Notes under the pieces: generated by a model | Database searches by the model: none | The model's input: only the letters and a program-made list of their open reading frames with translations | Told to the model about the DNA's origin: nothing | Shown: piece by piece, positions 1 through 16,422 of the stretch | Position numbering within the stretch: position 1 is the first letter of the stretch | Layout of the letters: every line of letters starts with the position of its first letter | Translations under genes and position numbers: made by a program | Source: Lachnospiraceae bacterium | Lineage (GTDB): Bacteria > Bacillota > Clostridia > Lachnospirales > Lachnospiraceae | Length of the DNA: 46,314 nucleotides | Assembly (NCBI GenBank): GCA_017439675.1 | Contig: JAFSIQ010000019.1 | Span: 1-46,314 of the forward strand | Reading direction: 5' to 3'

Positions 1-117
1 GATCCATCTTCAATCGAGTTCTGCCATAAGGTAGGATTGAACTATGTATCATGTTCTCCATTCCGTGTACCTATCGCTAGATTAGCTGCTGCTCAGGCTG
101 CAATCAATGATAAGTAA
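1..117 (+). CDS. ppdK: Pyruvate, phosphate dikinase, C-terminal end (partial)
   Basis: This is the last 38 codons of a gene that begins before the window. The readable residues include [20 protein letters not shown] and end in AINDK. That is the conserved C-terminal PEP-binding end of pyruvate, phosphate dikinase, which interconverts pyruvate/ATP/Pi and PEP/AMP/PPi in the cytoplasm and runs in the glycolytic direction in many anaerobic Firmicutes. The stop is TAA at 115-117. A structured 3' UTR with an intrinsic terminator follows at 324-359. The last eight codons and this 3' UTR reappear at about 2666 and 8579 (see the repeat entries). PEP synthase has a related C-terminus, but the [16 protein letters not shown] wording favours PPDK. 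Confidence 0.88.
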
Positions 118-359
118 GATGTGAAAACAATGAGATATGCGAATGCCGGAAGGCATTCGTAACATAAGAAATAAGGTGGGTTATGAAATGCTTGCATTTC
201 AGAGCCTGCCTTTTTCTTATGTGGCGAAAGTACGTCAGTACATTCATATATCGACTGTCCATCACTGAGCAAGCTTTGCTTGCGATGTGCGTGGTTGAAT
301 TGAATATCAATTAGTTTAATAAGCTCCTTGTGCTTCGTAATGAAGTGCAAGGAGTTTTT
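94..359 (+). repeat. Structured repeat, copy A (ppdK tail plus 3' UTR)
   Basis: This is the first of three related segments (others at 2627-4322 and 8540-8680). From 94 to about 162 it is essentially identical to copy B, and 219-320 is again nearly identical. Visible hairpins are: stem 140-147/152-159 with a GGAA (GNRA) loop; a stem of about 27 bp, 163-191/194-221; 259-294 with stem GCAAGC/GCTTGC and a TGA/GAT internal loop; palindrome 298-312; and the terminator 324-359. The last two stems differ in sequence from copy B but still pair. The segment starts inside the ppdK coding end, so here it is the 3' UTR of ppdK. Whether it also acts as a separate RNA cannot be seen. Confidence 0.8.
324..359 (+). 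terminator. Intrinsic terminator of ppdK / repeat copy A
   Basis: A 13-bp stem (324-336 with 342-354, two G-U pairs) closes a GTAAT loop and is followed by TTTTT. It ends the ppdK transcript. The equivalent stem in copy B differs by compensating changes. Confidence 0.85.
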
Positions 360-432
360 GGTTGATTTTTTGAAAAGGCTATCAGAAAGATGCAATTTTA
401 TAAAAAAAAGATATTATTAATGTGTGATTGTG

Positions 433-441
433 TGGTATAAT
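433..441 (+). promoter_or_regulatory. Extended -10 promoter for the chemotaxis receptor gene
   Basis: TGG-TATAAT at 433-441 is an extended -10 (TGnTATAAT) lying 31 bp before the start codon. No good -35 is visible, as is usual for extended -10 promoters. There is no sigma-28-type motif. Confidence 0.5.
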
Positions 442-472
442 TATTAAGATGTCAAAGTGAGGAGGGTTTACT

Positions 473-2560
473 ATGAAATCTATACGAATGAAAATTACAG
501 TTGCAATTGTGATATGCTCTTTAATTACAGCATGTATTATCAGTTTGCTTAGTATTTCTGATACGAGAGAATTATCGAATGCTGCAGCTGAAAATGAACT
601 AGTGCTAACCTGTGAAAATACAGGTGAAGAAATTAATGCTTTGATTTCTAGAATTGAGCAATCGGTAGACACGATCAGCGATATTGCAATGGAAAAGTTG
701 GAATTTTCTACATTTAAGAATAATAATGAATATGTGAGCGAGTATACCAATGGACTTTTGGAGGATTTTTATACTTTTGCAGAGCATACAGACGGAGCAA
801 TTACAGCATATATCCGTTATAATCCAGAATTTACAGAACCAACTTCTGGTATATTTTTGACTCGTAATGATACGGAGTCTGCATTTGACAGTGTGACACC
901 AACGGATTTTAGTATGTATGATCCGTCTGATTTAGCACATGTGGGTTGGTATTATCTACCAGTTGCAAACAAAGCTCCACTTTGGATGGACCCTTATTTG
1001 AATGCTAATATTAATGTTTATATGATTTCTTATGTGGTTCCACTTTATGAAAATGGTACATCAGTAGGAATTCTAGGAATGGATATTGATTTTGGCCAGT
1101 TGACGTCTTTAGCAGATGATGCGATTGCCTTTGATACTGGATATTCCTTTTTGGTTAGTTCGACAGGTAATGTATTGTATCATAAAGATATAGAGTCTGG
1201 TACTGATTTAGCAGAGTATAATGATGGAGACTTAACAGTTGTTAAGGATTTTATATTGGATGCTGCTAATCAAGGTAAAACACTGCAGTATAACTATAAT
1301 GGTGAGGAAAAATACTTAGCTTATGTGGAACTGAAGAATGGTATGAAGCTTGTATTGACAGCGCCATTAGAGGAAATTACGGCTGATGCAAATGCCCTTT
1401 CTGGTCAAATATTGATGTTTCTTGCCTTGGGATTGATGATTGCTATTGTGCTTGGAGTTTTGATAGGAAGTACGATTGCAAAACCGATTAAACGAATTAC
1501 AGAAATTATTAAACAGACTGCACAGCTAGATTTTCAACGAGCTGCAGGAATTGATGAATTGATGAATAAACGTGATGAGACCGGCGTTATGGCAAAGGCG
1601 GTAAATGAAATGCGTTCTGTTTTGCGTGAGTTGGTAGGTAACATGGAAGGTATTAAAGATGATTTGATTGGAAATATGGAGCGTTTAGATGACATAATGA
1701 GGGAAAACAATTCTATTTCTGAGGATAATTCTATAACTACCCAAGGACTAGCCTCTGGCATGGAAGAAACTACCGCTAGCGCGACTATGATTGTAAGCAA
1801 TATTGATGCAATCCAAACAAATGCAGAGGAAATTCGAGAGCTTTCTGAACGTGAACAGCAAGAGTCGAGAGAAATTATGACGAGAGCAAGAGAACTTCGA
1901 GATAATACAAGTGCTTCTAATGAGAAAGCAATGGCTATTTATGCAGATATGAGAACGCGTACGGAAGAAGCAATTGAAAAATCAAAAGTAGTTGCGAAGA
2001 TCAATGAGTTGACTGATGATATTCGTGATATTTCTGCTCAGACAAATCTACTGGCACTGAATGCTAACATTGAAGCTGCAAGAGCAGGGGAAGCAGGTCG
2101 TGGTTTTGCTGTAGTTGCTACTGAAATTGGCGCACTTGCTAATCAAACATTCCAAACTGTAGATGGCATTAGTGAAATTGTAAAAGAGGTCAATGAAGCT
2201 GTTGTTAATATGACAGATTGTATTCAGGTCATTATGAGTTTCTTGGAAGAAACAGTGGTTGAAGATTATAGTACGTTTGGTCAAGTAGGTGAACGTTATG
2301 AGAAGGATGCGGAAAGCTATGCAGAATCAATGCAGCATATATATTCTGAAATTTCTGAATTAAATCGTAAGATTGTAGAAATCGTGGATGCAATGGATGG
2401 TGTGAATCGTACAATTACAGAGTCTGCAGGTGGAGTGAATATGATAGCAGAGAAATCTGAAGATGCAGTTCAGAAAACGTTAGAAGGTTATGAGCATTTA
2501 CGTGAGAGCGAGACAAGTCTTAACCATTTGAAGGAATTAATTGAGCGATTTAATGTATAA
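473..2560 (+). CDS. Methyl-accepting chemotaxis protein with extracellular Cache domain
   Basis: This 695-residue transmembrane chemoreceptor senses an extracellular ligand and controls the CheA kinase. In order: TM1 at about residues 8-28; a periplasm-like dCache region, about 40-300, with a WYY...WMDPY stretch near 159-175; TM2 at about 312-335; a HAMP linker, about 335-390; then a long coiled-coil signalling domain. The highly conserved hairpin tip is plain near residues 515-560 ([29 protein letters not shown]). A GAGGAGG ribosome site lies 8 bases before the ATG. The ligand cannot be told: the arginine of the dCache amino-acid motif is not obvious. It stands alone between two repeat copies, with no che genes nearby. 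No clear terminator follows; repeat copy B begins about 65 bp downstream. Confidence 0.93.
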
Positions 2561-2626
2561 AAATGGTTTTGATGGTTGTAACTGAACGTAGAATTAATTT
2601 TTGTAATAGTTCTTTAGATATTAAAT

Positions 2627-2790
2627 AAGTTTACATAACTTTATATCCAACGACTTTAGATCCCACAGGCTGCAATCAATGATAAGTAAGATGTGAAAAC
2701 AATGAGATATGCGAATGCCGGAAGGCATTCGTAACACATAAAAGAAGCGTATTCGGGAATGCTTGCATTCCTGGATACGCTTTCTTTATG
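2627..2790 (+). repeat. Structured repeat, copy B, left part (split by ISL3)
   Basis: Positions 2666-2734 match 94-162 almost base for base, including codons that encode the ppdK tail but are not joined to any ppdK frame. Positions 2627-2665 are absent from copy A but shared with copy C (8540-8578). The hairpin 2737-2762/2765-2790 pairs about 25 of 26 positions, although its sequence differs widely from the corresponding stem in copy A. The copy continues after the insertion sequence at 4173. Confidence 0.82.
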
Positions 2791-4172
2791 GGCTCTTTGT
2801 CAAGAGTGGGGGTAAAACCCGTTAATAGCAGGTGTGGAGGAATCCACACCTGTTTTTAGATTAAGTTGTAGTCAATAGAATACGATTTCTAAAATTCTCA
2901 AAGTTACGGTATCCGTAAGCATTTCTTTTTATCACCTTGATTTTATTGTTAGTGCCCTCTGTGAAGCCATTGGAATAAGGGCATTCAAATGCATTTAATA
3001 TATATTTTGACCAGTTTGCAAGCATAGTAAGACACGAATTAAATTCAGATAATCCACTGACTTCTGCTGATAGGATGAATTTCTTGAGTTTTGGCAGAGC
3101 TTCTTGTTTTGATTCAGAGTTCATAAACTCATAGAATTGTTCTTTTAAGTAATAAGCTTGTGCTAACTCTGGGGATATGGATAGCATTACTTCCAATGCG
3201 TCTTTATTCTCATCACTTAGTTTGTCATAATGAGATAATAAAATGCGTCTGCTACGCTTGAAGTATTTACGTCTAGACGGATGCATATCTTTTTGAATAC
3301 GTTTTCGCACATTTTCTAAAGCCCAGGTCACATATCGCACGACATGAAATTTATCAATCACAATAGTAGCATTTGGAAAATACGTTTCTGCAATGTCACG
3401 ATACACGTAATTCATATTCATTATAAAACATTCTACTTCTTTGCGATTTGGAAACTCTCTTAAGTAGCTGCTAACCTGAGCTTGTGTTCTAGAAGGTAGT
3501 ATATCGAAAACTTTACGTTTCTTAGGGTCAGTTAGAATAGCTTGAAACTTCTGACCGCCAGCATTTCCTCTAAATTCGTCAATAGACAGAACCCTAGGAA
3601 GAGTAGTTGGTTTTGGATATTTTATATCTTCCATACGTCGAAAAATAGTGGAGGCTGAAATGCCGGTTTGTCTTGCGACAGAAGATACATTCTGATTCTC
3701 GCGTAGTAAATGAATTGCTAAAAAACCTAAGCGGTTGGTAATTCTACACTGTTTTGGTAGTAGGTTGAATGCTTCTTTAAAGTGGTGGTTACAAGCGGAA
3801 CAATGATAGCGTCGTTTTTTATAGTGAAGGAAGGTATGTTTGCCCTGTAATGGAGCATCTTTAATAATGGAGGTTCTATAGTCATGTACTTTGTTTGTCA
3901 TAGCACCACAAACCGGACAAACATGATCACGACGTTCAAGTTTAAAGAAGATGTGTACCTCTTCAGTAGTAGTTTCGGTTTTTTCTATAATTAGGTCTTT
4001 TATTTCTAGGATTTCTGATATAAAATTAGAATTAGGCATAGATGAAATCTCCTTTCTTTGTTTTTTGTTGTGGTGACTTAATTATAAAGAAATTTTGATT
4101 CTATGCCTATTCTTTTTTTTGCCTAAAAATAAAAGTGGTTCTAAACCTTACCCCCAAGTAAAGTTTAGAACC
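2791..4172 (-). mobile_element. ISL3-family insertion sequence, complete
   Basis: The element is about 1382 bp and carries one transposase gene on the reverse strand. Left end GGCTCTTTGTC and right end (reverse complement) GGTTCTAAAC form imperfect terminal inverted repeats, with a matching GGGGGTAA block about 17 bases in. Flanking octamers are TCTTTATG (2783-2790) and TCTTTATA (4173-4180), a 7-of-8 target duplication of the 8-bp size typical of ISL3. It interrupts the large hairpin of repeat copy B. The right end contains a 10-bp inverted repeat, 4137-4146/4163-4172, which could act as a terminator. Confidence 0.85.
2861..4039 (-). CDS. ISL3-family transposase
   Basis: This 392-residue transposase catalyses movement of the surrounding element. 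An N-terminal zinc ribbon (CPVCG ... CSACN, about residues 36-83) and a helix-turn-helix for end binding precede the DDE catalytic core. Candidate acidic residues are seen in SIDEFRG, VIDKFHVVRY and GFTEGTNNKIK, all characteristic of ISL3. An AAAGGAGA site stands before the ATG. Length and reading frame look intact, so the element may still be active. It fills most of the insertion sequence, leaving about 70 bp on the left and 130 bp on the right. Confidence 0.93.
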   Translation of the reverse strand: MPNSNFISEILEIKDLIIEKTETTTEEVHIFFKLERRDHVCPVCGAMTNKVHDYRTSIIKDAPLQGKHTFLHYKKRRYHCSACNHHFKEAFNLLPKQCRITNRLGFLAIHLLRENQNVSSVARQTGISASTIFRRMEDIKYPKPTTLPRVLSIDEFRGNAGGQKFQAILTDPKKRKVFDILPSRTQAQVSSYLREFPNRKEVECFIMNMNYVYRDIAETYFPNATIVIDKFHVVRYVTWALENVRKRIQKDMHPSRRKYFKRSRRILLSHYDKLSDENKDALEVMLSISPELAQAYYLKEQFYEFMNSESKQEALPKLKKFILSAEVSGLSEFNSCLTMLANWSKYILNAFECPYSNGFTEGTNNKIKVIKRNAYGYRNFENFRNRILLTTT

Positions 4173-4322
4173 TCTTTATATGTGTGGCGAAAGTACGTCA
4201 GTACATTCATATATCGACTGTCCATCACTGAGCAAGCTCTGCTTGCGATGTGCTTGGTTGAATTGAATATCAATTAGTGAAACGGACTCCTCGTATGTCG
4301 TAATGATGTGCGAGGCGTTTTT
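4173..4322 (+). repeat. Structured repeat, copy B, right part
   Basis: This continues copy B after the insertion sequence and matches 213-359 of copy A. It keeps the hairpin with the TGA/GAT internal loop (4222-4257), the AATTGA-ATA-TCAATT palindrome and the closing terminator. Loop bases and the terminator stem differ from copy A, with pairing kept. Confidence 0.8.
4288..4322 (+). terminator. Intrinsic terminator closing repeat copy B
   Basis: A stem of about 11 bp (CCTCGTATGTC with GATGTGCGAGG) around a GTAAT-type loop is followed by TTTTT. It is the counterpart of the terminator at 324-359, with a T-A to C-G compensating change in the stem. Confidence 0.75.
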
Positions 4323-4336
4323 GTTATAAATGACAA

Positions 4337-4395
4337 GGTAACAGGAATACTGCATTCAGTACTAGTACATATAAGAGTTCGGTTTCCTGCTAACC
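4337..4395 (+). other. Unassigned stem-loop before the MerR-type gene
   Basis: Outer arms GGTAACAGGAA (4337-4347) and TTCCTGCTAACC (4384-4395) pair with one bulge and one mismatch. An inner hairpin TACTG-CATT-CAGTA lies at 4348-4361. There is no T-run, so it is not an intrinsic terminator. The function is unknown. Confidence 0.4.
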
Positions 4396-4476
4396 AGAAT
4401 ATAACAGAATAAATGTAATTCGCGAAATTTACAAGTCCTGTTTTGAAAGCGGCAGTTGTTAGTGGAGCAGTATTGA

Positions 4477-4493
4477 CTGCACGTTACGTGCAG
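4477..4493. promoter_or_regulatory. Palindromic operator candidate before the MerR-type gene
   Basis: CTGCACG-TTA-CGTGCAG is a perfect 7-bp inverted repeat. It covers the -35 region of an extended -10 promoter (TGG-TATAAC at 4505-4513), 28 bases before the start codon. MerR-family proteins bind such dyads, so autoregulation is plausible. Confidence 0.5.
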
Positions 4494-4540
4494 TTTCAAA
4501 ATATTGGTATAACTAATCATTGTTTAAATGAGGTAAGCGA

Positions 4541-4870
4541 ATGAGAAACAGGACGTTAAGGGAAATATATGAAGAATATGGGATTTCCAGAAGAGCAATT
4601 CAAGGTTATGAAAAGGAGGGGTTAGTGCATGCTACAGCAAAAATGAAACGTGGATATCTGCTTTATAATGAAGATATGGTGAACCGAATGATACAGATAC
4701 GGTTTTATCAAGATATCGGATATCGTGTGAAACAAATTAAATATATTATTGATGCTACAAACGATATCAAAAAGGATGCTTTAGTGGTAAAACTTGATGA
4801 ATTAAAGTCAAAAAATGTAAAGACCAGTGATTTAATTCTTAAAGTGGAAAGAATGATAGCAGAACTTTGA
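4541..4870 (+). CDS. Small MerR-family transcriptional regulator
   Basis: This 109-residue DNA-binding protein has a MerR winged helix-turn-helix at residues 4-75: TLREIYEEYGISRRAIQGYEKEG, then GYLLYNEDMVNRMIQI and the wing/helix IGYRVKQIKYII. The rest is a short helix that could dimerise. It lacks the larger effector domain and the metal-binding cysteines of classical MerR proteins. The ATG follows a GAGG site. A dyad overlaps its promoter. The lipoprotein gene starts 90 bp downstream with no terminator between, so the two may be co-transcribed and the lipoprotein may be a target. That link is inference. Confidence 0.75.
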   Translation: MRNRTLREIYEEYGISRRAIQGYEKEGLVHATAKMKRGYLLYNEDMVNRMIQIRFYQDIGYRVKQIKYIIDATNDIKKDALVVKLDELKSKNVKTSDLILKVERMIAEL

Positions 4871-4960
4871 TGAAGAAACTAGCAACTGTGCGCTTATCGA
4901 TGGTTTTAGAACGGAAGATTAGATATGAGAACACATTTATTCAAGGAGGATGGATGATTT

Positions 4961-6109
4961 ATGATGAAAAAATTATCAATAATTATAATTACTTTTTGTA
5001 TGTCAATTTCAATGGTGGCATGTAATAGAATGGCAGATGTCGGCAAGAATGAATCGAATGTAACAGAGACTTTGGCGGAGAAAACGCAACAAGAAGAAAC
5101 AGCAGAAGAAAAAATGGCGGTGGGAGAGTTGGGGCAACTGCAAACACCAATTTATGATATGATTACAGGATTTCAAGAAGAATATACATCGATTGTGGAC
5201 TCAATGGATAATTCTTATGATGGCTATGTTGAACATAAGGAAGAAATGAATACATTTTGTGAAAAGATGGTTGTTGAATCACAGGATGTGTTTTCGAGCC
5301 TTGCGGAATCTTCTGTTAATTATTTTGAAGAAGCATTTGAACAACATAAAGACGATAAGGAGGCGTTGGAAGATGCCATTGATGATTATTATGACGAGAT
5401 ATACGATGGTGTTTTAGATGATTATTATGATGATGTATATGATGGTATATTGGATGATATGTATGATGACATATACGATGGTATCATTTCAGGTGCGTAT
5501 GAAGAATTAGAGTATAAAGAGTGGTCTGATGCTTCTGGTGGTGCATATGAAATGTGGTCGGATACAACTTCTAGTGTGTATAAAGAGTGGTCCGATGCCA
5601 GTGCTTTGTGTTATGTGATTTGGTCAGAGGCATCTAGTCAATTCTACGCAGATAACAAAGATGCAGAAGATGTAGCACAGAAATTAAGGGAAGTTATGGA
5701 ACGGAAAATAAAAGAAATTCAGGGCGAAAATAAGGAAGATGAAAAAGAAGTAACGGAAGAGATTCAGGATAACGAAACTGAGAGTTCGGAAGAAACTAAA
5801 GAAGAAAGTACGGAGTCCTCAGAAAGCACAAGTGATGAGTTAATAGATGGAATGAGACCAGAATTTAAGGCGGCGATGGATAGTTATGAAGAATTCTTTG
5901 ACGAGTATATCGCATTTATGGAGAAGTATGCAGAATCCTCAGACACACTGAGTATGATGGAGGACTACTTGGATTATATGGAAAAGTATGCGGAAACCAT
6001 GAAGAAATTAGAAGAAATGGAAGATGATGAAATGAACGATAAGGAGGCTGCTTATTATCTCGAAGTTATGACAAGAATAAATAAAAAACTTCTAGATGCA
6101 TCTTTATAA
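4961..6109 (+). CDS. Repeat-rich lipoprotein of unknown function
   Basis: This 382-residue protein has a lipoprotein signal peptide ending at about Cys21 (SMVAC), so it is probably anchored outside the membrane. Residues 141-176 are three tandem 12-residue units (DDYYDEIYDGVL and variants), followed by a related unit. Residues 189-229 are 11-residue units of the form S-[DE]-[AT]-[ST]-...-Y-x-x-W. A highly acidic E/S/T-rich stretch (about 245-295) and a helical C-terminal part follow. Eleven- and twelve-residue periods with regular Tyr/Trp suggest a long helical or coiled-coil rod. I recognise no family with a known function. A strong AAGGAGG site stands before the ATG. A terminator follows at 6213-6253. 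Confidence 0.75.
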   Translation: MMKKLSIIIITFCMSISMVACNRMADVGKNESNVTETLAEKTQQEETAEEKMAVGELGQLQTPIYDMITGFQEEYTSIVDSMDNSYDGYVEHKEEMNTFCEKMVVESQDVFSSLAESSVNYFEEAFEQHKDDKEALEDAIDDYYDEIYDGVLDDYYDDVYDGILDDMYDDIYDGIISGAYEELEYKEWSDASGGAYEMWSDTTSSVYKEWSDASALCYVIWSEASSQFYADNKDAEDVAQKLREVMERKIKEIQGENKEDEKEVTEEIQDNETESSEETKEESTESSESTSDELIDGMRPEFKAAMDSYEEFFDEYIAFMEKYAESSDTLSMMEDYLDYMEKYAETMKKLEEMEDDEMNDKEAAYYLEVMTRINKKLLDASL

Positions 6110-6212
6110 AGTGGATTTGTGCGATATAGGACAAGAGGTAGAATTACTACGATAATAAAGATGACTTGAATATAAGGACTTTTGACATGGTAGTGTTCGA
6201 CTTTTTTGAGTA

Positions 6213-6253
6213 GGGAAGCTAATTGTTTGCAGGGCAATTAGCTTTCCTTTTGT
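6213..6253 (+). terminator. Intrinsic terminator after the repeat-rich lipoprotein gene
   Basis: GGGAAGCTAATTG pairs with CAATTAGCTTTCC, with one mismatch, and a TTTTG run follows. The rest of the 6110-6458 gap holds this terminator and a promoter candidate near 6381; I see no gene in it. Confidence 0.75.
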
Positions 6254-6380
6254 GTGTGAAAAATCATACTAAAAAATGACAAAGAATGCTATTTATGATA
6301 GAATGATATGGTATATTTAATCAGGACATACATTGGTTTCAAATGTTGGACCTTATATGACAAATCCGTTGTTCTTATAT

Positions 6381-6409
6381 TTGTTTTTGTGAAAAACACA
6401 AATTATATT
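6381..6409 (+). promoter_or_regulatory. Promoter candidate for the DUF4230 pair
   Basis: TTGTTT (6381-6386), a 17-base spacer and TATATT (6404-6409), about 50 bases before the start codon at 6459. Confidence 0.4.
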
Positions 6410-6458
6410 ATGAGGAAAAATATTACTATTATGTGATACACAAAGGAGAAGAAAGTAT

Positions 6459-7073
6459 ATGGAAAATGAAGATAAGAGAAAATTTAATTTAACAAAAGCA
6501 AAAATAGCAATTATAACAGTTGCAGTATTTGTTGTAATAATACTCCTTATTGCAATTGGTGTTTATATGAAAATGGTGGTGTTCAATAACAAAGAAGGAC
6601 AGGTAAGTACAATTTCAAAATCTTCTCTGGAAAAGGTGCTTGAGATTAATGAATTGTCAACAATAGATTATACATATAATGCTACTACAAAAGTTTATGA
6701 TGAAGATGGTACGACTATAAAGTATTATGTCGCATATGAAGGAATTGTAACGGCAGGAATTGATTTTGAAAATATTGAGATTGTTCCGGATGAAGAACAA
6801 AAAAAGATTATCATAACACTTCCAGAAATACAGGTAAATGATGTGAATGTAAACATGGGAACGCTGGATTATATTTTCATGAAAGACAAATATGAAACGG
6901 AAACAGTTTCGCAAGAAGCATATAAGGCATGCAAACAAGATTTGAAAAGTCGAGTGAAGAATGAAACAGATTTGCATAAAATGGCTAGAACAAATGCGAT
7001 AGAATCGGTAAAAGCTTTGTTTACACCATGGATTCAACAAGTGGACGAAGAATACGAAGTTGAAGTAAAGTAA
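6459..7073 (+). CDS. DUF4230 membrane protein
   Basis: This 204-residue protein has one N-terminal transmembrane helix (about residues 15-36, KIAIITVAVFVVIILLIAI) and an extracytoplasmic domain of the DUF4230 type, recognised by the pattern ELSTIDYTYN ... YEGIVTAGIDF ... ITLPEIQVNDVNV ... and a helical C-terminal end (ARTNAIESVKALFTPWIQ). The molecular role of DUF4230 is not known. It is followed after a four-base gap by a second member of the same family, probably from one transcript. An AAAGGAGAAG site lies before the ATG. Confidence 0.8.
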   Translation: MENEDKRKFNLTKAKIAIITVAVFVVIILLIAIGVYMKMVVFNNKEGQVSTISKSSLEKVLEINELSTIDYTYNATTKVYDEDGTTIKYYVAYEGIVTAGIDFENIEIVPDEEQKKIIITLPEIQVNDVNVNMGTLDYIFMKDKYETETVSQEAYKACKQDLKSRVKNETDLHKMARTNAIESVKALFTPWIQQVDEEYEVEVK

Positions 7074-7086
7074 GGGGATGAGACAA

Positions 7087-7713
7087 ATGATTAAAAAAAT
7101 ATTTATAATAGGTATTATATTATTGACAGTATTAATTATGTGTTCTTGTTCGGCAGAAAAAAAGGTTATAAATGAACCAGAGATAACACAAATTAGGTCA
7201 ATATGCAATTTGGCGACATTGGAATGTTATTATCACAATGTGGCAAAATCAGTAAAAACAGCAGGTGAGGGGATTGCACATTGGGGAGAAAAAGAAAGAA
7301 AATTTTGGATAGAGTATACTGGTGTAGCCAAAGTTGGAGTTGATATGTCAAAAGTGACCATGGAGATGGATGGGACTAATGTTATTATTTCGATTCCTGA
7401 TGCTGAATTAATGAATATTAGTGTGGAAGAATCAACTTTGAATGAAGAATCTTATATATCATCGGCAGATGGGTTGAATAGCAATAAAATTACAGCAGAG
7501 GATCAAACGGCGGCAATTGAAAATGCACAAAAAGAAATGGAGGAGAGTGTAAAAAATAATTCTGCATTACTATTGAGTGCGCAGAGTCGGGCAAAGGATT
7601 TGATTAAAAATTATATTGACCGATTAGGAGAAGTTTCAGGTGTTGAGTATAAGATTACATGGGTATATGAAGATGGCGAAGAAACAACAAAAATAAACGA
7701 TGAAGCAAAATAA
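7087..7713 (+). CDS. DUF4230 lipoprotein
   Basis: This is a second DUF4230 protein of about 208 residues, 13 bases after the first. It keeps the same core pattern (NLATLECYYHN ... YTGVAKVGVDMSKVTM ... ISIPDAELMNISV ... helical end). Instead of a plain anchor it has a signal peptide ending in a Cys-rich lipobox-like MCSC, so it is probably a lipoprotein. I prefer the ATG at 7087 because GGGG ends 9 bases before it; an in-frame ATG at 7078 would have no spacer. The membrane-anchored and lipid-anchored paralogues probably act together at the cell surface, but the function is unknown. Confidence 0.78.
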   Translation: MIKKIFIIGIILLTVLIMCSCSAEKKVINEPEITQIRSICNLATLECYYHNVAKSVKTAGEGIAHWGEKERKFWIEYTGVAKVGVDMSKVTMEMDGTNVIISIPDAELMNISVEESTLNEESYISSADGLNSNKITAEDQTAAIENAQKEMEESVKNNSALLLSAQSRAKDLIKNYIDRLGEVSGVEYKITWVYEDGEETTKINDEAK

Positions 7714-7747
7714 ATGTTAAGATTAATTTTGTGAATGGAGGTACACC

Positions 7748-7927
7748 ATGACTCTTACAGAATCATTTAAAGAATTCTATAAAGTGTGCAAAGAAATGGA
7801 TATCGAAGATACAGTAGAAGTAGCGTTAAATGCTGAATCAAAGGAAGAACAAGAATTTGTCGAATTAATTAGTAACTTCTTCATGCAACAAAGACAAAAA
7901 GAAGTAATAGCCAAAGGTTTGTTTTAG
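7748..7927 (+). CDS. Small protein of 59 residues, unknown
   Basis: The protein begins MTLTESFKEFYKVCKEMDIE and ends EVIAKGLF. It is predicted all-helical and acidic, with no signal peptide or membrane segment. Support for a real gene: a GGAGGT site 6-7 bases before ATG, a start 34 bases after the preceding stop, normal codon usage, and a perfect terminator just after the stop (7935-7967). It is probably the last gene of the DUF4230 transcript. I do not recognise a family. Confidence 0.7.
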   Translation: MTLTESFKEFYKVCKEMDIEDTVEVALNAESKEEQEFVELISNFFMQQRQKEVIAKGLF

Positions 7928-7934
7928 GATATAG

Positions 7935-7967
7935 AATAACAGGAATAGTGATGTTCCTGTTATTTTT
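7935..7967 (+). terminator. Intrinsic terminator after the 59-residue protein gene
   Basis: An 11-bp perfect stem, AATAACAGGAA/TTCCTGTTATT, with an 8-base loop, followed by TTT. Confidence 0.85.
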
Positions 7968-7989
7968 ATGTAATGGAGACATATTATAC

Positions 7990-8018
7990 TTGTAATACAT
8001 CTTGTGATTGGATATAAT
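7990..8018 (+). promoter_or_regulatory. Promoter of the antitoxin gene
   Basis: TTGTAA (7990-7995), a 17-base spacer and TATAAT (8013-8018). A direct repeat TTTGATAAAATT-like lies between it and the start (about 8028-8048); it could be an autoregulatory site, but this is not shown. Confidence 0.65.
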
Positions 8019-8065
8019 AATTGTGATGATAAAATTTTGATAAAATTATGATAGGAGTGACTGCT

Positions 8066-8323
8066 ATGATACAGATAAAACCCGTTTCTGATTTGAGAAA
8101 TAAATTCGCGGATATTGAAAAGCTTGTGGATGAAGGACAACCGGTTTATCTTACTAAAAATGGTTATGGAAAAATGGTGGTGTTGAGTTTAGAGGCATAT
8201 TCAAAACTAACGGATGGTGTTGAATTGGCGTTGGATGAAGCTGATTGGTTAGCAGAAGAAGATTCTACAAGATATACACATGAAGAAGTGTTCTCTAATT
8301 TGAGGAGGCGAATTAATGGCTGA
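8066..8323 (+). CDS. Phd/YefM-family antitoxin
   Basis: This DNA-binding antitoxin has about 85 residues. The N-terminal Phd/YefM fold is clear (IKPVSDLRNKFADIEKLV, then QPVYLTKNGYGKMVVLSLEAY, about residues 3-50). The acidic C-terminal tail normally wraps the toxin. I choose ATG 8066 because AGGAG lies at 8053-8057; an earlier in-frame ATG at 8048 precedes that site. The next reading frame starts at 8316 and overlaps the stop, the usual antitoxin-toxin arrangement, but that toxin is a remnant. The antitoxin therefore looks orphaned. Confidence 0.85.
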   Translation: MIQIKPVSDLRNKFADIEKLVDEGQPVYLTKNGYGKMVVLSLEAYSKLTDGVELALDEADWLAEEDSTRYTHEEVFSNLRRRING

Positions 8324-8432
8324 TACAACATATGTGGTTTATTATGTTGTTATAAATGATGAGCAATTGGGAAAAATAATGGAGATTCGTAGGTTTTTAT
8401 ATAATCGACAGAACAGAGAGCAGCTTATATAA
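8316..8432 (+). pseudogene. Internally deleted RelE/ParE-type toxin remnant
   Basis: The 38-codon frame overlaps the antitoxin stop (ATGGCTGA) and has a GAGGAGG site. Its first part, MADTTYVVYYVVINDEQLGK, resembles the N-terminus of ParE/RelE toxins. Its last part, RRFLYNRQNREQLI, resembles the conserved C-terminal strand and tail (I-L-Y-x-R-x-D-x-x-x-L). About 60 central residues of a normal toxin of roughly 100 are missing, with the frame kept. It cannot form the toxin fold, so I call it a pseudogene. It could instead be a surviving mini-protein, which I think less likely. Confidence 0.65.
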
Positions 8433-8539
8433 TTATTATCTGCCTCGAAATGGGAAAAATGTTATTCGGGGCAGGGAATAAAAATTAGCCTACGATAACT
8501 CAATTTCTTTATTTTACAACAGTGTTTCAGACACCAAAC

Positions 8540-8680
8540 AAGTTTACATAAGTTTATATCCAACGAAGTTAGACCCCACAGGCTGCAATCAATGATAAGT
8601 AATACACCGTAATCGGTTGAATTGAATATCAATTAGTTAAATGAACGTCTCAGCTTTATAATGAAGTGCGAGGCGTTTTT
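8540..8680 (+). repeat. Structured repeat, copy C, internally deleted
   Basis: Positions 8540-8600 match copy B from 2627 (AAGTTTACATAA... through the ppdK-tail bases ending GATAAGTAA). The copy then jumps, after about 12 unrelated bases, to GGTTGAATTGAATATCAATT (8614-8633) and a closing terminator at 8645-8680. The GNRA hairpin, the long variable hairpin and the TGA/GAT hairpin, about 190 bases in copy A, are missing. The 8433-8763 gap holds this copy and the next gene's promoter; I see nothing else in it. Confidence 0.75.
8645..8680 (+). terminator. Terminator closing repeat copy C
   Basis: ACGTCTC pairs with GAGGCGT (one G-U pair), with an inner CTTT/GAAG stem and a bulge, followed by TTTTT. 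It is weaker than the terminators of copies A and B. Confidence 0.55.
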
Positions 8681-8682
8681 CA

Positions 8683-8711
8683 TTGTTGATTGTTTTTATG
8701 TATTGTATAAT
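8683..8711 (+). promoter_or_regulatory. Promoter candidate for the DUF4304 gene
   Basis: TTGTTG (8683-8688), a 17-base spacer and TATAAT (8706-8711), starting just after the copy C terminator. Confidence 0.5.
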
Positions 8712-8763
8712 GATATTTATACATAAATGTAGAAAGAAGCAATCAAGAAAAGGAGTTAGCTTG

Positions 8764-9396
8764 ATGTTCGATATATTTAAAAAGAAACACAATAAAAAAG
8801 ACTTCTACTTTGTTGGAAATAGGCCACATCTTCGGACTGAAGAGGAAAAATCACTTGTTAACAAACAAGAAGCAGATTTGGCATTTAAGCGATACAAGAG
8901 AGAAATTATAGATGATTTGCTGTTGGGTAATGGTTTCTACAAATATAAGACGAATGCATATGTGAGATTAAATAACATTGGTCTGTTGGAATATGTTGAT
9001 TTACAAAAAGAGAGATATGGTTCAAAAACGTTTTGTGTCAATTTTGCTGCCATGCCATTATATTGTGTAAATAAATACATTATTGTTAGCTTGGGAGGCA
9101 GATTAGGTACTTATATATCCGGCAAAGATGTTTGGTGGGATTATGCATCAGAAAATGTCGCAAAAGCAAGCTTTGAAAATGTATCGATGGCGATAGAAAA
9201 ATATATGTTTCCTTGGTTTGAGGAGGTTTCTACTGAGGAAGGGTATAGAGCTAAATTGCAACAGGTTCACAGTAAAAAGCTTGCAGCAGAGTGGCTTGAT
9301 GCGCTAGAGAACATCCAAGATAAAGAAACATTGATAGAGCAGAATATAGTAGAGCTTAGGTTGCCGAAAAAGATAAGAAAGTATAAAGAGTTATAA
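8764..9396 (+). CDS. DUF4304-domain protein
   Basis: This cytoplasmic-looking protein has about 210 residues. After a basic N-terminus (FDIFKKKHNKKDFYF) it shows the DUF4304 pattern: a helix, then LLLGNGFYKYKTNAYVRLNN, then LEYVDLQKERYGSKTFCVNF, a GG motif and a Trp-rich stretch (DVWWDYASE). Its function is unknown. I use the ATG at 8764, seven bases after AGGAG; the in-frame extension back to 8683 would run through the -10 box. It has its own promoter and appears monocistronic. Confidence 0.75.
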   Translation: MFDIFKKKHNKKDFYFVGNRPHLRTEEEKSLVNKQEADLAFKRYKREIIDDLLLGNGFYKYKTNAYVRLNNIGLLEYVDLQKERYGSKTFCVNFAAMPLYCVNKYIIVSLGGRLGTYISGKDVWWDYASENVAKASFENVSMAIEKYMFPWFEEVSTEEGYRAKLQQVHSKKLAAEWLDALENIQDKETLIEQNIVELRLPKKIRKYKEL

Positions 9397-9445
9397 AAAC
9401 TATAAAGCGGAATCATTATATGTAGAATTCTTCCTGTTTCTCTTC

Positions 9446-9481
9446 ATTGACAATACAGAGATAGAATGATAAATTGTCAAT
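9446..9481 (+). promoter_or_regulatory. Promoter with flanking inverted repeat, zinc-ribbon/LRR gene
   Basis: TTGACA (9447-9452), a 17-base spacer and TAAATT (9470-9475). A perfect 9-bp inverted repeat, ATTGACAAT (9446-9454) and ATTGTCAAT (9473-9481), overlaps both boxes, so a repressor or a hairpin could act here. Confidence 0.5.
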
Positions 9482-9528
9482 ATTACCGAACAAAAGAAAA
9501 TTATTATCTAAAGTAAAGGAAATAACAC

Positions 9529-11349
9529 ATGATTAAACTAATTGAAATGGAATGTGAAAATTGTGGAGGAGCATTAGAGCAGATTGATAGAGAAAGAGCA
9601 AGATGTCCGCATTGTGATGCCGTATATTTGATTGATAGGGGGCAACCGAAAGAAATTCATGTGCATCAAACAGCGCCAGCGCAGAGAAATTCTACACCCC
9701 TTATTGCTTTTGCAATCATTGTAGTAGCGTTATTGGTTTTTTTAGTGGTAGAGATTCGTAACACTTATACAACAGGAGATACTAACCGAACTTCTTCTGT
9801 GGGGACGGAAGCAAAAGAAGAAAAGTTTCGTTCTGAGTTCTTCAAAACGCTAGTCATGGAAATCTATGGTGCGTCAGTAGAAGAGGTTGCAGAAGAAGAA
9901 TTGCGTGAGTTAACCTCGTTATATGTTTATCGTGAGAATGGTTGTTATGTTGTAGAGTACAGCAGAAATGATGGTGAGACAAAGCAAATACAGATGGAAG
10001 ATTCCTTGTATAGTGATATGGCTGATTTGAAAAATTTTCCGAACCTAAAAAGGATCCATTTCATTACAGAAACCATTCCACAGGTGGCTTTAAATCAGCT
10101 GAATTCTCTAGAAGAGGTGTGGTGTCAGAATACACCAAAAGATTTGGCAGATGGCCTGACACATCCTGAAAAACTAAAGGTTTATGGATGTTATGATGCG
10201 GAAACCCTAGACGGTGTGGATGCATTTACGCAGTTAGAACACTTGCACATCAATGACTATGATTTGGCGGATTTGAATGCAATTAGTGCCCTTACGAATT
10301 TGAGGAAATTAGAAATTGTCAATGGAGATGCGATTACTGATTTTGGGGTGTTACATTCTTTGAAACAGCTCGAGGTTTTGTATATGGATACAGAACAGCT
10401 TAAGGACATTTCTTTTGTTGGAAAAATGCCTAATTTAAAAGAGTTTTCTATGAAGGATGCCATTGTAATAGATATTTCGGCATTAGATGGGAAAACAACA
10501 TTAAAGAAGGTTGTTTTGCAGGATAATAGAGAATTGACAGATTATAGTGCTTTGAGTTCCCTAAATGAATTAGAAGAGTTGACTTTGGAATTGGGAAGTA
10601 AAGCGCAAATGCCAGATGCAAGCAATTGGACCAAGCTGCATACATTGTCTATTCAAGGGGTATCGGATGTTTCCTTTATGCAATCCTTAACCGGATTGAA
10701 AACATTGTATCTAAAGGGAGCAGATTGTAACACATTTGATGTGTTTGCTTCGTTGCAAAACCTAGAGTATTTGCAGATTGGCAGTGTGTATGGTGATCTG
10801 GATAATTTGAATATGCTTACTCATTTGTCAAAGCTGAAAGTATTAGATATGAGTGGTATGACTGTATATGGCAATGTGGAAGCTATCTTTTCGATTGCGA
10901 GCTTGGAAGAGATTAATATCAATGATTGTAGTTTTGGATTGAATTTTGATGCGATTCCAGAACACGCAAACTTGAAAAAATTACATATGAATCGTCTGCG
11001 TCTTTGGGAAAATATTATGGTGCAGTATGATGGTGCATTTACTTATGTCGATTATGATGATGTGGAATTGGTTGATAACATCGATGTGGTAAAGAAATTT
11101 GGCAATCTTGAGGAGTTGTATCTGCAAGGAAACAAACTTACAAATATTTCCTTTGTTGAGAGTTTACCGAATTTGAAGAAATTAGATATTACCAACAATT
11201 ATGTGACAGATTTGCGTCCGCTACAGCAGTTGTCACAATTTGAAATTGTGTGGTGTGGACAAAATGCGATTTCGCAAGGGTCTGATCTGGGGGCTGATGT
11301 CACCGTGGTTTTAGATTCCGAAGAAGAGGAAAAGGAGTGGTGGGAATAA
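9529..11349 (+). CDS. Zinc-ribbon, single-pass membrane, leucine-rich-repeat protein
   Basis: The 606-residue protein starts with a zinc ribbon (Cys9, Cys12, Cys26, Cys29), followed by one transmembrane helix (about 57-75). A linker of about 60 residues leads into leucine-rich repeats of about 22-24 residues from about 155 to 585 (LTNLRKLEI, LKQLEVLYM, MPNLKEFSM, FGNLEELYLQGNKLTNISF, LPNLKKLDITNNYVTDL), like internalin-type LRRs. The tail is acidic (DSEEEEKEWWE). The topology suggests a cytoplasmic zinc ribbon and an outside LRR surface for protein binding. The partner is unknown. It seems monocistronic, with its own promoter and the bidirectional terminator at 11393-11438. Confidence 0.8.
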   Translation: MIKLIEMECENCGGALEQIDRERARCPHCDAVYLIDRGQPKEIHVHQTAPAQRNSTPLIAFAIIVVALLVFLVVEIRNTYTTGDTNRTSSVGTEAKEEKFRSEFFKTLVMEIYGASVEEVAEEELRELTSLYVYRENGCYVVEYSRNDGETKQIQMEDSLYSDMADLKNFPNLKRIHFITETIPQVALNQLNSLEEVWCQNTPKDLADGLTHPEKLKVYGCYDAETLDGVDAFTQLEHLHINDYDLADLNAISALTNLRKLEIVNGDAITDFGVLHSLKQLEVLYMDTEQLKDISFVGKMPNLKEFSMKDAIVIDISALDGKTTLKKVVLQDNRELTDYSALSSLNELEELTLELGSKAQMPDASNWTKLHTLSIQGVSDVSFMQSLTGLKTLYLKGADCNTFDVFASLQNLEYLQIGSVYGDLDNLNMLTHLSKLKVLDMSGMTVYGNVEAIFSIASLEEININDCSFGLNFDAIPEHANLKKLHMNRLRLWENIMVQYDGAFTYVDYDDVELVDNIDVVKKFGNLEELYLQGNKLTNISFVESLPNLKKLDITNNYVTDLRPLQQLSQFEIVWCGQNAISQGSDLGADVTVVLDSEEEEKEWWE

Positions 11350-11392
11350 ATAAGGCGTTCCGCAATGACAGAGGATAAAAATATGAATAAGA

Positions 11393-11438
11393 AAAAGAGG
11401 TTCTAAACTTTGGGTTAAGTAAAGTTTAGAACCTTTTT
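11393..11438. terminator. Bidirectional intrinsic terminator between convergent genes
   Basis: A 13-bp perfect inverted repeat, GGTTCTAAACTTT (11399-11411) with AAAGTTTAGAACC (11421-11433), has a T-run after it on the plus strand and an A-run before it, so it can serve both genes. Its arms and an AAGTAAAGTTTAGAACCT stretch match the right end of the ISL3 element at 4137-4173. Confidence 0.85.
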
Positions 11439-11441
11439 AAT

Positions 11442-12971
11442 TTAATACTCCAATAAAGAATCCACTTCTACCTTAAATGGTAGTAGCTTCAAAATATCAT
11501 TTTCAATATCTACACCTGGATATACTTCGATGAGTCGGAGGCCATGTTCTCCCAATTCAAATACACACCGCTCTGTCACATATAGGACTTTCTGTTTGTT
11601 CGCGCGGGCACGTTTTGCTGAAAAACTGATGCTAGTTACTTTATCTACAAACTTTGGAATGGAACCGTCATTCTTAATCGTAACCTTTCCGTCCTGTTCA
11701 TCCACATTAAGTCCTTTGGTATTAAATGTTAGGCAGAACACCACAGTTTTGGTCTTAGCAGTGATATTGGCAAATCCACCGACGCCAGCAAAGGCACCAG
11801 GGCCACGATGGGCATTCACGTTACCATGTTTATCAACTTCGATACCGCCCATAAAGCAGATGTCAAGACCACCATTGTTGTATAAGTCAAACTGGTTTGC
11901 CATGTCATACATGGAGTTGGCACCAATAACCGCACCGAATACCTTGCCGGATGCAGGAAAACCACCAACGCCACCGGATTCTACAGTTAATGTCACTTTA
12001 TCTAAGATTCCAGTTTCACGAGCATATTTTGTAACCGTTTCAGGAATACCCACACCAATATTTACAATGTCATCCGCTCGAAGTTCCATGGCAGCACGTT
12101 TGCCAATGATGTTTCCTGCAACGTTAACCATATTCTTTGTGGAAGTTCTTGCCTCTAACATATCACTCCAATCCTGCCACTGAGAGTATGGGATTTCAAA
12201 ACCACCGGTCAAGGACTCATATGCTGCATGGCGAGGTTCGGGTTCTACTTTAACAATCGCATCCACAAGACATCCCGGAATGATGGTGTTACGAGGTCTG
12301 GAAGGTGTACTTTCAATGCGGTCTACTTGAACAATAACCTTTCCGCCATTTGCTTTGGTCGCCTGACAGATAGATAGTGCATCACCAGACATATACATGT
12401 CGTCAAAGGAAATGTTACCTCTGCGGTCAGCAGTGGTTCCTTTAATCAGTGCAACATTGAATTTTGGAAGCTTGTAGTATAAGAATTCCTCGCCATCAAC
12501 CTCCACGTGTGTTACCAAAGAATCGTCTTTCGAAATGTTGTTGATTCCTGGTCCGTCTACCAATGGGTCTACAAAAATGTCAAGACCAACCTTGGATAGA
12601 GCTCCTGGAATACCACCAGCCTGTGCACGAATTGCATGGGAAATACAGCCCAGTGGAAGATTATAAGCTTCGAATTTGTCTTCTAACACAAGTCGCTTGG
12701 TACTAAACATTGCACCAAAGTGTCCGCAGATAATCTTGTCTACAGCCCCTTCCTTTATGTATTGTTCCGCGTTCTTGTTCTCGTCCCAGACACCGAATCC
12801 TGCGCTAGACACCATGGTCAAATGCTTTGGAGAACCGGTTGCCTTGTATTTGCGGTAAATCGCTTCGTGTAATTCTGTAGGATTTTCGATTCCTAGAAAG
12901 GAATTCAAACAAATCACATCACCGTCGTTTATAATATCGATTGCTTCATCAGAAGTCATAATTTTGTACAT
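11442..12971 (-). CDS. Acetate/propionate-type CoA-transferase (family I, single chain)
   Basis: This 509-residue cytoplasmic enzyme moves CoA between acyl-CoAs and a short carboxylate such as acetate, using a glutamyl-CoA thioester. Both halves of the family I fold are in one chain, as in propionate CoA-transferase and YdiF. The N-terminal half has the oxyanion-type GG-IPGALSKVG region. The C-terminal half has ESGGVGGFPASGKVFGA with the likely catalytic Glu at 331, then QFDLYNNGGLDICFMGG and HGNVN. The exact acyl substrate (propionyl, butyryl or acetoacetyl) cannot be fixed from sequence. An AGAGAGG site precedes ATG. It is a single-gene unit on the reverse strand that ends at the shared terminator. 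Confidence 0.88.
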   Translation of the reverse strand: MYKIMTSDEAIDIINDGDVICLNSFLGIENPTELHEAIYRKYKATGSPKHLTMVSSAGFGVWDENKNAEQYIKEGAVDKIICGHFGAMFSTKRLVLEDKFEAYNLPLGCISHAIRAQAGGIPGALSKVGLDIFVDPLVDGPGINNISKDDSLVTHVEVDGEEFLYYKLPKFNVALIKGTTADRRGNISFDDMYMSGDALSICQATKANGGKVIVQVDRIESTPSRPRNTIIPGCLVDAIVKVEPEPRHAAYESLTGGFEIPYSQWQDWSDMLEARTSTKNMVNVAGNIIGKRAAMELRADDIVNIGVGIPETVTKYARETGILDKVTLTVESGGVGGFPASGKVFGAVIGANSMYDMANQFDLYNNGGLDICFMGGIEVDKHGNVNAHRGPGAFAGVGGFANITAKTKTVVFCLTFNTKGLNVDEQDGKVTIKNDGSIPKFVDKVTSISFSAKRARANKQKVLYVTERCVFELGEHGLRLIEVYPGVDIENDILKLLPFKVEVDSLLEY

Positions 12972-13111
12972 TGTTTTGCCTCTCTTCTTTATGTATAATT
13001 ACAATAGATACACCATACCATTACAAATCGTTTTTGGCAACAAAATTCGGTGGAAATAGCGGTATTTTAAGGCGTTTTTGTAAGATGGCAGATGCAATTC
13101 TACGAGTTTTT

Positions 13112-13119
13112 GATATAAT
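13112..13119 (+). promoter_or_regulatory. Extended -10 promoter candidate for the lipoprotein gene at 13214
   Basis: TGA-TATAAT at 13111-13119, with TG one base before TATAAT, lies about 95 bases before the gene. No good -35 is visible. The 12972-13213 gap otherwise holds the divergent upstream region of the CoA-transferase gene. Confidence 0.4.
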
Positions 13120-13213
13120 TATGAGTATCAGAATCGTAACAGTTAAGAAATACTTAACTGTTCAAATGGATAAGGATTTAGAAAAGTATGGGTGGTAAAT
13201 CAGGAGGTATATG

Positions 13214-14257
13214 ATGAAAAGAATAATGTTAATTGCATTCTTATGCATCATTTTTTTGTGTGGCTGTAGAAAAGAATATGATGAGAAAGATATCAAGGAA
13301 TATGTGAAAACAGAATATGGCTTAAAGTCTGTTTCAGTAGAAGAGAAACCAGAGGCGATTCAGGATGAGGATGACAGGACGGATTATATATGGACAGTGA
13401 CTGATAAAAAGCATAACATGAAGTTTCGTGTGCTGGATGATTTTCGGGCGGATTCTTTGTTTCCTGGTAACAATTTGACTAGTGATTATGAAGATGTCCG
13501 ATTGGCACAGGCTTTTGAACAGTATGATTCAAAAAAGCTTTCTTTAGAAACCAAAACGCAATATGCTCTATGTCGTGCTACGATTAGGGGCAATTATAGT
13601 AGTAGACAAGAATTGCAGGAGCTGTTTGAAGAAACCAATGCATTTTTGAAAGAATACTTGGATAACGAAGTGAAAGTCAGTATTCATTTCACAATGGATA
13701 CTCCTTATCGTGATGCGGTAGAAGGATATGAAATGGATTCTGGTGATTACCGTGGTACGGCTACAAAGTTTACGGAAGAAATGTATGAGGAGGCGGAAGG
13801 AAATCTCATTTTGACCGCGTTGGATTATAGCTTAGATGCATGTTTGGAGCAATTTACAGAAGAAGAAATTGAGGAAGCGGTTGCAAATAGCAAATATCGT
13901 CTCGGTATAGCAGATTCAGAAGAAGGTCCTTATGAATATTATGACGATTTGGTGGCTAGTCGGTTCTCATATGGAGTGAGCTTTTCAACCTTGTATGAGA
14001 TTTTTATAAGAGAAGGTTATTCAGTGGAAGGAGATAAGAACCATTATTCCTTTGTGGGTGTGGATGGTTCCACTTATGAAATTTCTTATGACTTTGTAGG
14101 GTATGAGTACAAAGATGGAAAGGTTGGATATTACTACTTGAAGGATGGTGTGGAAACACCGATGGATGCTTATTTTTACAATCATTTTGAAACGCCATTT
14201 ATCCGGGATGCAACAGGAATTTATCTAAGAGAATATTGGCAGGAAGAAGAGAAATAA
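13214..14257 (+). CDS. Lipoprotein of unknown function
   Basis: This protein of about 347 residues has a clear lipoprotein signal peptide (MKRIMLIAFLCIIFLCGC, lipobox LCGC, Cys at about 18). The mature part begins with short acidic segments, then a mixed alpha/beta body with no motif I recognise. Two ATGs stand in tandem at 13211 and 13214; AGGAGG at 13202-13207 is better spaced for the second. It has many Asp/Glu and Tyr residues, as is usual for exported lipoproteins here. It probably stands alone. The function is unknown. Confidence 0.7.
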   Translation: MKRIMLIAFLCIIFLCGCRKEYDEKDIKEYVKTEYGLKSVSVEEKPEAIQDEDDRTDYIWTVTDKKHNMKFRVLDDFRADSLFPGNNLTSDYEDVRLAQAFEQYDSKKLSLETKTQYALCRATIRGNYSSRQELQELFEETNAFLKEYLDNEVKVSIHFTMDTPYRDAVEGYEMDSGDYRGTATKFTEEMYEEAEGNLILTALDYSLDACLEQFTEEEIEEAVANSKYRLGIADSEEGPYEYYDDLVASRFSYGVSFSTLYEIFIREGYSVEGDKNHYSFVGVDGSTYEISYDFVGYEYKDGKVGYYYLKDGVETPMDAYFYNHFETPFIRDATGIYLREYWQEEEK

Positions 14258-14334
14258 AATTTGTAAAAGTAAAATAGTCTCCATTCTTCATTCGTGTATA
14301 CGATGTGTGATAGGAGAATTCTATTTGATATCAC

Positions 14335-16409: not shown

Positions 16410-16422
16410 TTGAAGTGTTATG

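Follow-up and report, generated by a model that had tools for sequence, protein, structure and literature searches.

The 46,314-nucleotide contig JAFSIQ010000019.1 of a Lachnospiraceae bacterium (assembly GCA_017439675.1), which we refer to in its entirety as the window, contains near its beginning three related sequences, copies A, B and C, the first of which is joined to the 3' end of the gene ppdK. An earlier reading of this sequence, below called the original prediction, treated the three as copies of one structured repeat that starts with the ppdK tail. Our comparisons resolve this arrangement into an ordinary, old duplication of the ppdK 3' end and a member of a widespread family of folded repeats that abut terminators. 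We consider it likely, taking all parts of the statement jointly, that copies A and B carry one non-autonomous, structured intergenic element of a family that is spread through the Lachnospiraceae, is mobile, is placed at intrinsic terminators, and is homologous to the Clostridiales-1 RNA (Rfam family RF01699). Genomes, loci and contigs are designated below by G, L and C numbers, respectively.

The original prediction had named occurrence of the unit away from ppdK in other genomes as support for mobility, and an absence of copies outside the locus as a sign of mere local duplication. We found the structured part at many unrelated loci, in the genome of origin as well as in others. A search of the former with copy A gave 17 matches, mostly to the inner part only, and a 27-base core from this part, CACTGAGCAAGCnnnGCTTGCGATGTG, with 3 or fewer mismatches, occurred 16 times in that genome (2.0 Mb, 70% complete), as compared to 0 occurrences of a backward-pattern control. 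The core was present in 5 of 26 genomes of the genus, the genome of origin included, one of the five (G001) having a single match with 3 mismatches. A slightly wider core pattern matched 45 stretches in a collection of 84,980 species, all titled Lachnospiraceae; two core patterns gave 0 matches in viral contigs, and plasmids gave no match. We then used a covariance model, R1, which was built from 14 compact copies with a short calibration and hence has rough E-values, at a cut-off of E ≤ 1e-4. R1 matched 61 of 397 genomes of the bacterial family, representing 58 of 334 genera, and 3 of 398 genomes in a phylum-wide sample, all 3 being from the same bacterial family and one being the genome of origin. 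Our literature search gave no description of such repeats in Lachnospiraceae, and the element is not mentioned by name in the available part of a review of prokaryotic miniature inverted-repeat transposable elements (MITEs; PMC10969869) or of a human-microbiome survey for candidate structured RNAs (PMC8040213). Four contigs of the genome of origin (C8, C18, C26 and C35) begin or end in tandem cores spaced 76–78 bases; cores with this spacing lie at contig ends in L012 (positions 1–212), L013 (its end), L014 (its end) and L016 (499–729). Tandem copies probably broke the assembly at these contig ends, and so help to explain the assembly breaks of this genome.

The dispersed copies share a fold. 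For 66 distinct cores with flanks in which the upstream stem was parsed, the recurring layout, in order, was TGA, stem P1, GA, a linker, CAC TGA, a second stem, and GAT GTG; tandem-array units and some truncated copies gave no good P1 in this parse. The element thus consists of a branched first stem followed by a hairpin, CAC-TGA-GCAAGCnnnGCTTGC-GAT-GTG (hairpin 2), and GATGTG or an equivalent sequence forms the end of the basic unit. Each of the two stems is closed by tandem G.A (TGA/GA), a motif that is absent at P1 in the G036 and G121 copies and at hairpin 2 in the G083 copies. In the compact form (about 90 bases overall) P1 has a small apical hairpin, and in the long form (about 170 bases), to which A and B belong, P1 can enclose three hairpins, a, b and c, so as to form a four-way junction. 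The layout was the same, with varied stem sequences, across 40 and then 20 further places matched by R1. Coordinates of the element and its parts in the window, all on the + strand, are as follows.

124–289, element A in its long form, made up of TGA-P1 (enclosing three hairpins), a linker and hairpin 2 (R1 covers just 220–291)
134–252, P1 of A: GATATG (134–139) with CATATATC (245–252), enclosing hairpins a, b and c
140–159, 162–222 and 226–245, hairpins a, b and c, respectively, inside P1 of A
263–289, hairpin 2 core of A, CACTGAGCAAGCTTTGCTTGCGATGTG, with TGA/GAT tandem G.A loop
2696–2790, 5' part of element B: hairpin a and most of hairpin b
4173–4252, 3' part of element B, with hairpin 2 at 4226–4252
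16456–16536, decayed compact copy directly after a terminator T-run, hairpin 2 broken (R1 48.5 bits, E 5.3e-11)

Copy A folds far better than shuffled sequences (z = -7.23 as RNA and -7.45 as DNA), and the fold is corroborated by covariation. In a compact alignment, A1 (14 sequences), 5 of 27 pairs were changed on both sides, and in a long alignment, A2 (13 sequences, counts confined to P1 and hairpin 2), 11 of 22 pairs were so changed, in 48 cells; 0 of 500 shuffles reached either value. Further pair types in A2 were not above shuffles (240 of 500). A third alignment, A3, comprised 61 matches (59 distinct, a few weak opposite-strand matches included) and was fitted to the model, which favours the model; here 25 of 27 pairs were changed on both sides, with 273 double-change cells, a value again reached by 0 of 500 shuffles, and 95.4% of the positions concerned were paired as compared to 25–47% for slid structures. 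When 12 long copies were folded and inspected by eye, the branched form was the minimum-energy structure of 6, one extended stem that of 5, and hairpins without P1 that of 1; the extended stem arises because hairpins a and c share bases with P1. Two features flank the basic unit. Of 57 copies, 28 had an outer stem, P0, with a run of 5 or more bases (10.8 would be expected); 20 matched a strict pattern for a 3' hairpin, CGAGTAGG..CCTACTCG, and 13 more had this hairpin in part. Further copies can sit in tandem behind this 3' hairpin. At L057 (1415–1513) hairpin 2 is repeated three times by itself with a 37-base period, so the hairpin-2 half can multiply without P1. We also observed that A2 columns 18–19 with 132–133, in P1, hold a G.T wobble beside a C.A mismatch that is invariant in 13 of 13 sequences and is surrounded by covarying pairs; this spot looks like a fixed recognition feature.

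The 5' junction of the element usually lies at a T-run that belongs to a host terminator. R1 starts at TGTG and the T-run falls outside it, and the bases before the element were therefore free for an examination of the target. Outside the A/B/C locus, TTTT was present at the 5' junction of 67 of 78 copies, as compared to 5–6% of control positions; this total combines a first set (47 of 58 copies, controls 125/2154, tandem or weak extra R1 matches being left out) and 20 later places (20 of 20, controls 31/636). By a strict definition, a hairpin with T-run was located 5' of the element in 41 of the 58 copies and at 56 of 2154 control positions. Of the 17 copies missed by the strict definition, several are seen by eye to follow plain terminators whose loops are longer, and no terminator is visible before L215, L216, L227 and L239. 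Some tandem copies adjoin the element's own 3' hairpin instead.

Comparison of orthologous sites revealed the element as present in one genome and absent from others. Six G004 sites were compared with G000, G003, G008 and G022 where these matched, which gave 18 readable comparators; the guaB comparator of G008, whose contig ended before the site, was outside the 18. R1 matched 1 of the 18 (metK in G000) and 17 were without a match, and by eye there was no trace of the element in 16. The metK site of G000 has its own broken copy behind a terminator (R1 64 bits), and that of G008 has a hairpin like hairpin b and no R1 match. The clearest empty site was tyrS in G008, where TTTTTTTATG is joined directly to TTATAAAATC. 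The ferredoxin site of G003 was dropped as a precise empty site; by eye, distal pieces of the element persist there, and the site may therefore have arisen by deletion between TGTG repeats; it was not scored as empty. No target duplication was visible at the compared sites.

The window itself gave nothing in an Rfam search at gathering scores, and RF01699 had no match at E ≤ 10 in window positions 1–17000. To this extent the original prediction, which recognised no known family, was correct for the window copies. Relatives, mostly in other genera, are different in this respect. In permissive Rfam searches at E ≤ 0.01, 19 of 49 distinct loci had an RF01699 match on the element and on its strand (5 of 10, 4 of 20 and 10 of 20 in three sets, one locus being scanned twice), and at E ≤ 1 none of nine loci of the genus had one. 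One of the 19 was an unlinked copy of the genome of origin (L211, 39.1 bits). E-values went down to 1.1e-7 and the best score was 44.6 bits (L235 and L279) against a gathering score of 48; in the best match the model was aligned from its first to its last position. Six alignments were inspected, four of them lying on the element by R1; these four (44.6, 43.6, 39.1 and 37.7 bits) share a GCUUGC loop and a UGAG- or CGAG-type second hairpin. The third hairpin of RF01699 is collapsed in L235 and L211, partial in L223, and replaced in L220 by a hairpin of the CGAGTAGG type. A further RF01699-like match (L204, 252–394, 40.0 bits) is located beside an element of the complete genome G256, on the opposite strand. 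The likeness thus extends to an outer stem, a first hairpin with a GCUUGC loop and, in the relatives, a UGAG..GCGAA second hairpin, as well as to an origin in Clostridiales and gut; the differences are the third hairpin, which is absent, partial or replaced here, and the unmatched window copies. The wider element family is most likely homologous to Clostridiales-1 RNA, below the family threshold and not as a member of it. Clostridiales-1 was rated as a probable RNA that is probably not cis-regulatory and probably not a switch (Weinberg 2010, PMC2864571), and the part of that report available to us has nothing on mobility or terminators for it.

An RNA family that was described in 2010 with no known function appears, then, to be part of a larger set of terminator-abutting genomic repeats. 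This would make an orphan RNA a question of mobile elements that follow a clear rule in choosing their targets, and would mark out terminators as a natural safe harbour for insertions. We offer tentatively, and as a somewhat doubtful extension, that the Clostridiales-1 "RNA" and its relatives are a distinct mobile class that homes to intrinsic terminators: the folded strand would recognise the hairpin and T-run, the element's own 3' hairpin, small and terminator-like, would be the next landing site, and the mover, acting in trans, would be neither a Y1 transposase nor a group II maturase. For the family in general we envisage that a folded single strand, either ssDNA or RNA, is the moving form, that an enzyme acting in trans is required, that the landing point is immediately 3' of the hairpin and T-run of a terminator, in many cases directly after TTTTTGTG, and that insertion leaves, as far as is visible, no target duplication.

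Several observations weigh against a mobile, terminator-placed family related to RF01699. The copies of the window, A and B, follow the ppdK stop codon and not a T-run, and TTTT is absent at the 5' junction of 11 of the 78 other copies. Exact insertion points are ambiguous by a few bases, the element ends being uncertain because flank and element share TGTG/TTG. The branched form is of minimum energy in only 6 of the 12 long copies; copies from the same genome, and the model-fitted A3, are not independent evidence; and the R1 E-values, as stated, are rough. The RF01699 gathering score was never reached, and 30 of the 49 loci, the nine genus loci and the window were without a match. No enzyme was found: the Y1_Tnp family is absent from G000, G003 and the complete genome G256, the maturase family GIIM is absent from G000, G003, G004, G008 and G256, and the 25 largest groups of neighbouring open reading frames (ORFs) include, by eye, no transposase-like family. 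In the 58 loci concerned there were 285 ORFs within 3.5 kb of cores, and the largest group (10) looks like ABC ATPases. The mover may be lost, or may be of a class other than Y1 or group II maturase.

The alternative that best withstands these data, and which we nevertheless regard as unlikely, is an RNA element retained by the host, the fold acting in 3' untranslated regions (3' UTRs) or read-through RNA, in RNA stability or back-up termination, under selection and with occasional copying by recombination. Strong covariation, the 3' hairpin on many copies (20 of 57 by the strict pattern), the location of element A inside the 3' UTR of ppdK, and sites common to species, such as a flagellar-gene site shared by G000 and a G008 record (L014 and L085), are all consistent with such a role. 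Yet most copies begin after a terminator, where little RNA is expected, the neighbouring genes are diverse, the element is absent from 16 of 18 orthologous sites, and promoter-like sites in window positions 1–9000 are at chance level (45, as compared to a mean of 41.0 in shuffles).

With regard to candidate movers, we consider it quite improbable that the element is of the REP/RAYT or IS200/IS605 type and is moved by a Y1 HUH transposase. Its two imperfect hairpins on one strand, the lack of visible target duplication, and insertion 3' of a short sequence, TGTG, with which the element also ends, would suit such an enzyme, and 13 of the 26 genus genomes had a Y1 match, among them G008 with two and G004 with a fragment. 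However, only 5 of 15 element-rich genomes have Y1_Tnp and 10 are without it, and among the three genomes that lack it, named above, G256 is a complete single contig with ten copies. Of 25 Y1 loci, 24 had no TGA/GA-type hairpin and L097 had one that is unlike that of the element; by eye, the ends of eight Y1 loci also differ from those of the element. A Y1/IS200 mover was demoted on these grounds. Group IIC intron machinery was considered because these introns enter DNA behind stem-loops, and their targets are often terminators. The kind of target is the same, in that a DNA stem and spacer are followed by CTTT as IBS1 and T as IBS3 (PMC10190682). Mobilisation by this machinery is nonetheless very improbable and was not supported: GIIM occurs in only 4 of 19 genomes and in neither G256 nor the four genus members with copies, and by eye no domain V was recognised in the element.

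A mobile family of this kind accounts for the structured part only, and the history of the ppdK region is a separate matter. Sequence comparison within the window confirmed that the repeats are real and that they share a block starting with the last codons of ppdK, as had been predicted. Starting at the ppdK tail, A and B agree at 95% of 82 bases (94–175 and 2666–2747), and over the 141 bases leading to the terminator they are 89% identical (220–360 and 4183–4323); in searches against the genome of origin these matches had E = 3.0e-33 and 2.7e-48, far beyond chance. B and C are 85% identical over 91 bases (2599–2689 and 8512–8602). C shares with A the 24-base ppdK tail (100%) and, beyond a gap, positions 8615–8680 (82%). 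Each copy ends, as predicted, in a terminator-like hairpin with T-run; a simple scan listed only that of B (4289–4315), and those of A and C were identified by eye. The remaining features of the region are as follows.

94–117, + strand, last codons of ppdK and stop (115–117), copy A; copied in B (2666–2689) and C (8579–8602)
118–123, + strand, GATGTG, left flank of element A; the same six bases end the element
324–359, + strand, the terminator of ppdK itself, 3' of element A (by eye)
2599–2665, + strand, upstream block common to B and C only (8512–8578 in C)
2791–4172, - strand, ISL3-family insertion sequence (ends by eye)
2861–4039, - strand, transposase of this insertion sequence (DDE_Tnp_ISL3, E = 1.5e-75)
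4289–4322, + strand, terminator of copy B
8512–8681, + strand, copy C: upstream block, ppdK tail, TACACC (8603–8608) and terminator

Some particulars of the original prediction require revision. The upstream block limited to B and C is present and measures about 67 bases, not 38, approximately 38 being well kept by eye. The two pieces given for copy B are right, and are one unit interrupted by the ISL3-family insertion sequence (2791–4172), which sits in hairpin b of element B between the flanks TCTTTATG and TCTTTATA. Copy C has the tail and the terminator and lacks the structured part, with TACACC in place of the element. The decayed copy of the structured part at 16456–16536 lies beyond the stretch that the original prediction covered. 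The proposal of a duplicated 3' UTR holds for the ppdK tail and terminator and fails for the structured part; the proposal of a mobile or RNA-coding unit that captured the ppdK end is correct as to dispersal of the structured part, while the ppdK tail lies outside the unit, being found in 0 of 60 loci fetched as model matches away from the A/B/C region. Cores with a ppdK tail within 400 bases upstream occur only at the A and B positions of G000, G004 and G008. To judge by these sequences, the ppdK tail belongs to the local duplication and not to the mobile unit. That an old local 3' UTR duplication explains the whole arrangement, a view to which we attach next to no credence, is adequate for the tail and terminator, parts of the arrangement recurring in G003, G004 and G008, but is refuted for the inner part by its presence at many unrelated loci.

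The element of the window lies between the ppdK stop codon and the ppdK terminator. A query containing the ppdK tail matched 21 of 26 genus genomes, and downstream of ppdK in 20 genus loci the element was present in 3 (G000, G004 and G008), 16 were readable without it, and 1 ended too early; R1 matched none of these 17 others. In G022 a hairpin related to the ppdK terminator is also located 3' of ppdK, without the element (by eye). The copy C junction is identical in G000, G004 and G008, and G003 retains only hairpin 2 there. Copy C is probably the pre-insertion state, because across the junction (8577–8629) it is 83% identical to the sequence that follows ppdK in G023, where there is no element. 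A likely history is that the ppdK tail and terminator were duplicated to give the frame of B and C, that the element entered A, that B acquired it from A by conversion or a second duplication, and that C stayed element-free.

Within the genome of origin, the 5' parts of elements A and B are 100% identical and the 3' parts 92% (the 3' part of B being cut five bases longer for this comparison), as compared to only 64% for hairpin b. Hairpin b of B is 92% identical to that of the G008 copy A, and hairpin b of A agrees at 87% with that of L088, an unlinked element in which the 5' part reaches only 62% identity. Therefore, hairpin b seems to have been exchanged as a module. The hairpin-b part of copy A also matched G023 (C102, 62–156, 77%) and G013 (C61, 2329–2420, 75%), both genomes being core-free; these are perhaps free hairpin-b modules. 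Elsewhere in the window, two neighbouring DUF4230 proteins are encoded (6459–7073 and 7078–7713) 3' of a DUF6591 protein with a lipoprotein-like start, and a Phd/YefM antitoxin gene is located at 8048–8323.

The element can be compared with several known systems. Its resemblance to MITEs is confined to the short P0 arms, which look like inverted ends (the insertion-sequence ends compared being those of the eight Y1 loci), and no target duplication is visible at the six compared G004 sites. It shares with group IIC introns a target made up of a DNA stem-loop and then a T-rich site (PMC10190682), and differs from them in its size of about 90–175 nt and in having no maturase gene and no recognised ribozyme core. 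As with the REP/REPIN-RAYT system (PMC3733652), there are short palindromic repeats with imperfect stems, in many copies and in tandem arrays. In contrast, the element has two unlike hairpins in one orientation and no linked Y1 transposase was found; it also has no constant GTAG or CGTC tag at a hairpin end, and GTAG itself is found within the 3' hairpin CGAGTAGG and close to where the G036 copies start. The BOX, RUP and SPRITE sequences of Streptococcus pneumoniae are described in PMC3049150 as small dispersed repeats with extensive predicted secondary structure, BOX having variable inner modules, and such repeats are thought there to be parasitic and of low mobility. The element is BOX-like in being dispersed, intergenic, folded and modular; it differs from these pneumococcal repeats in host and structure, and in that its copies abut the T-runs of terminators, whereas SPRITE itself resembles a terminator.

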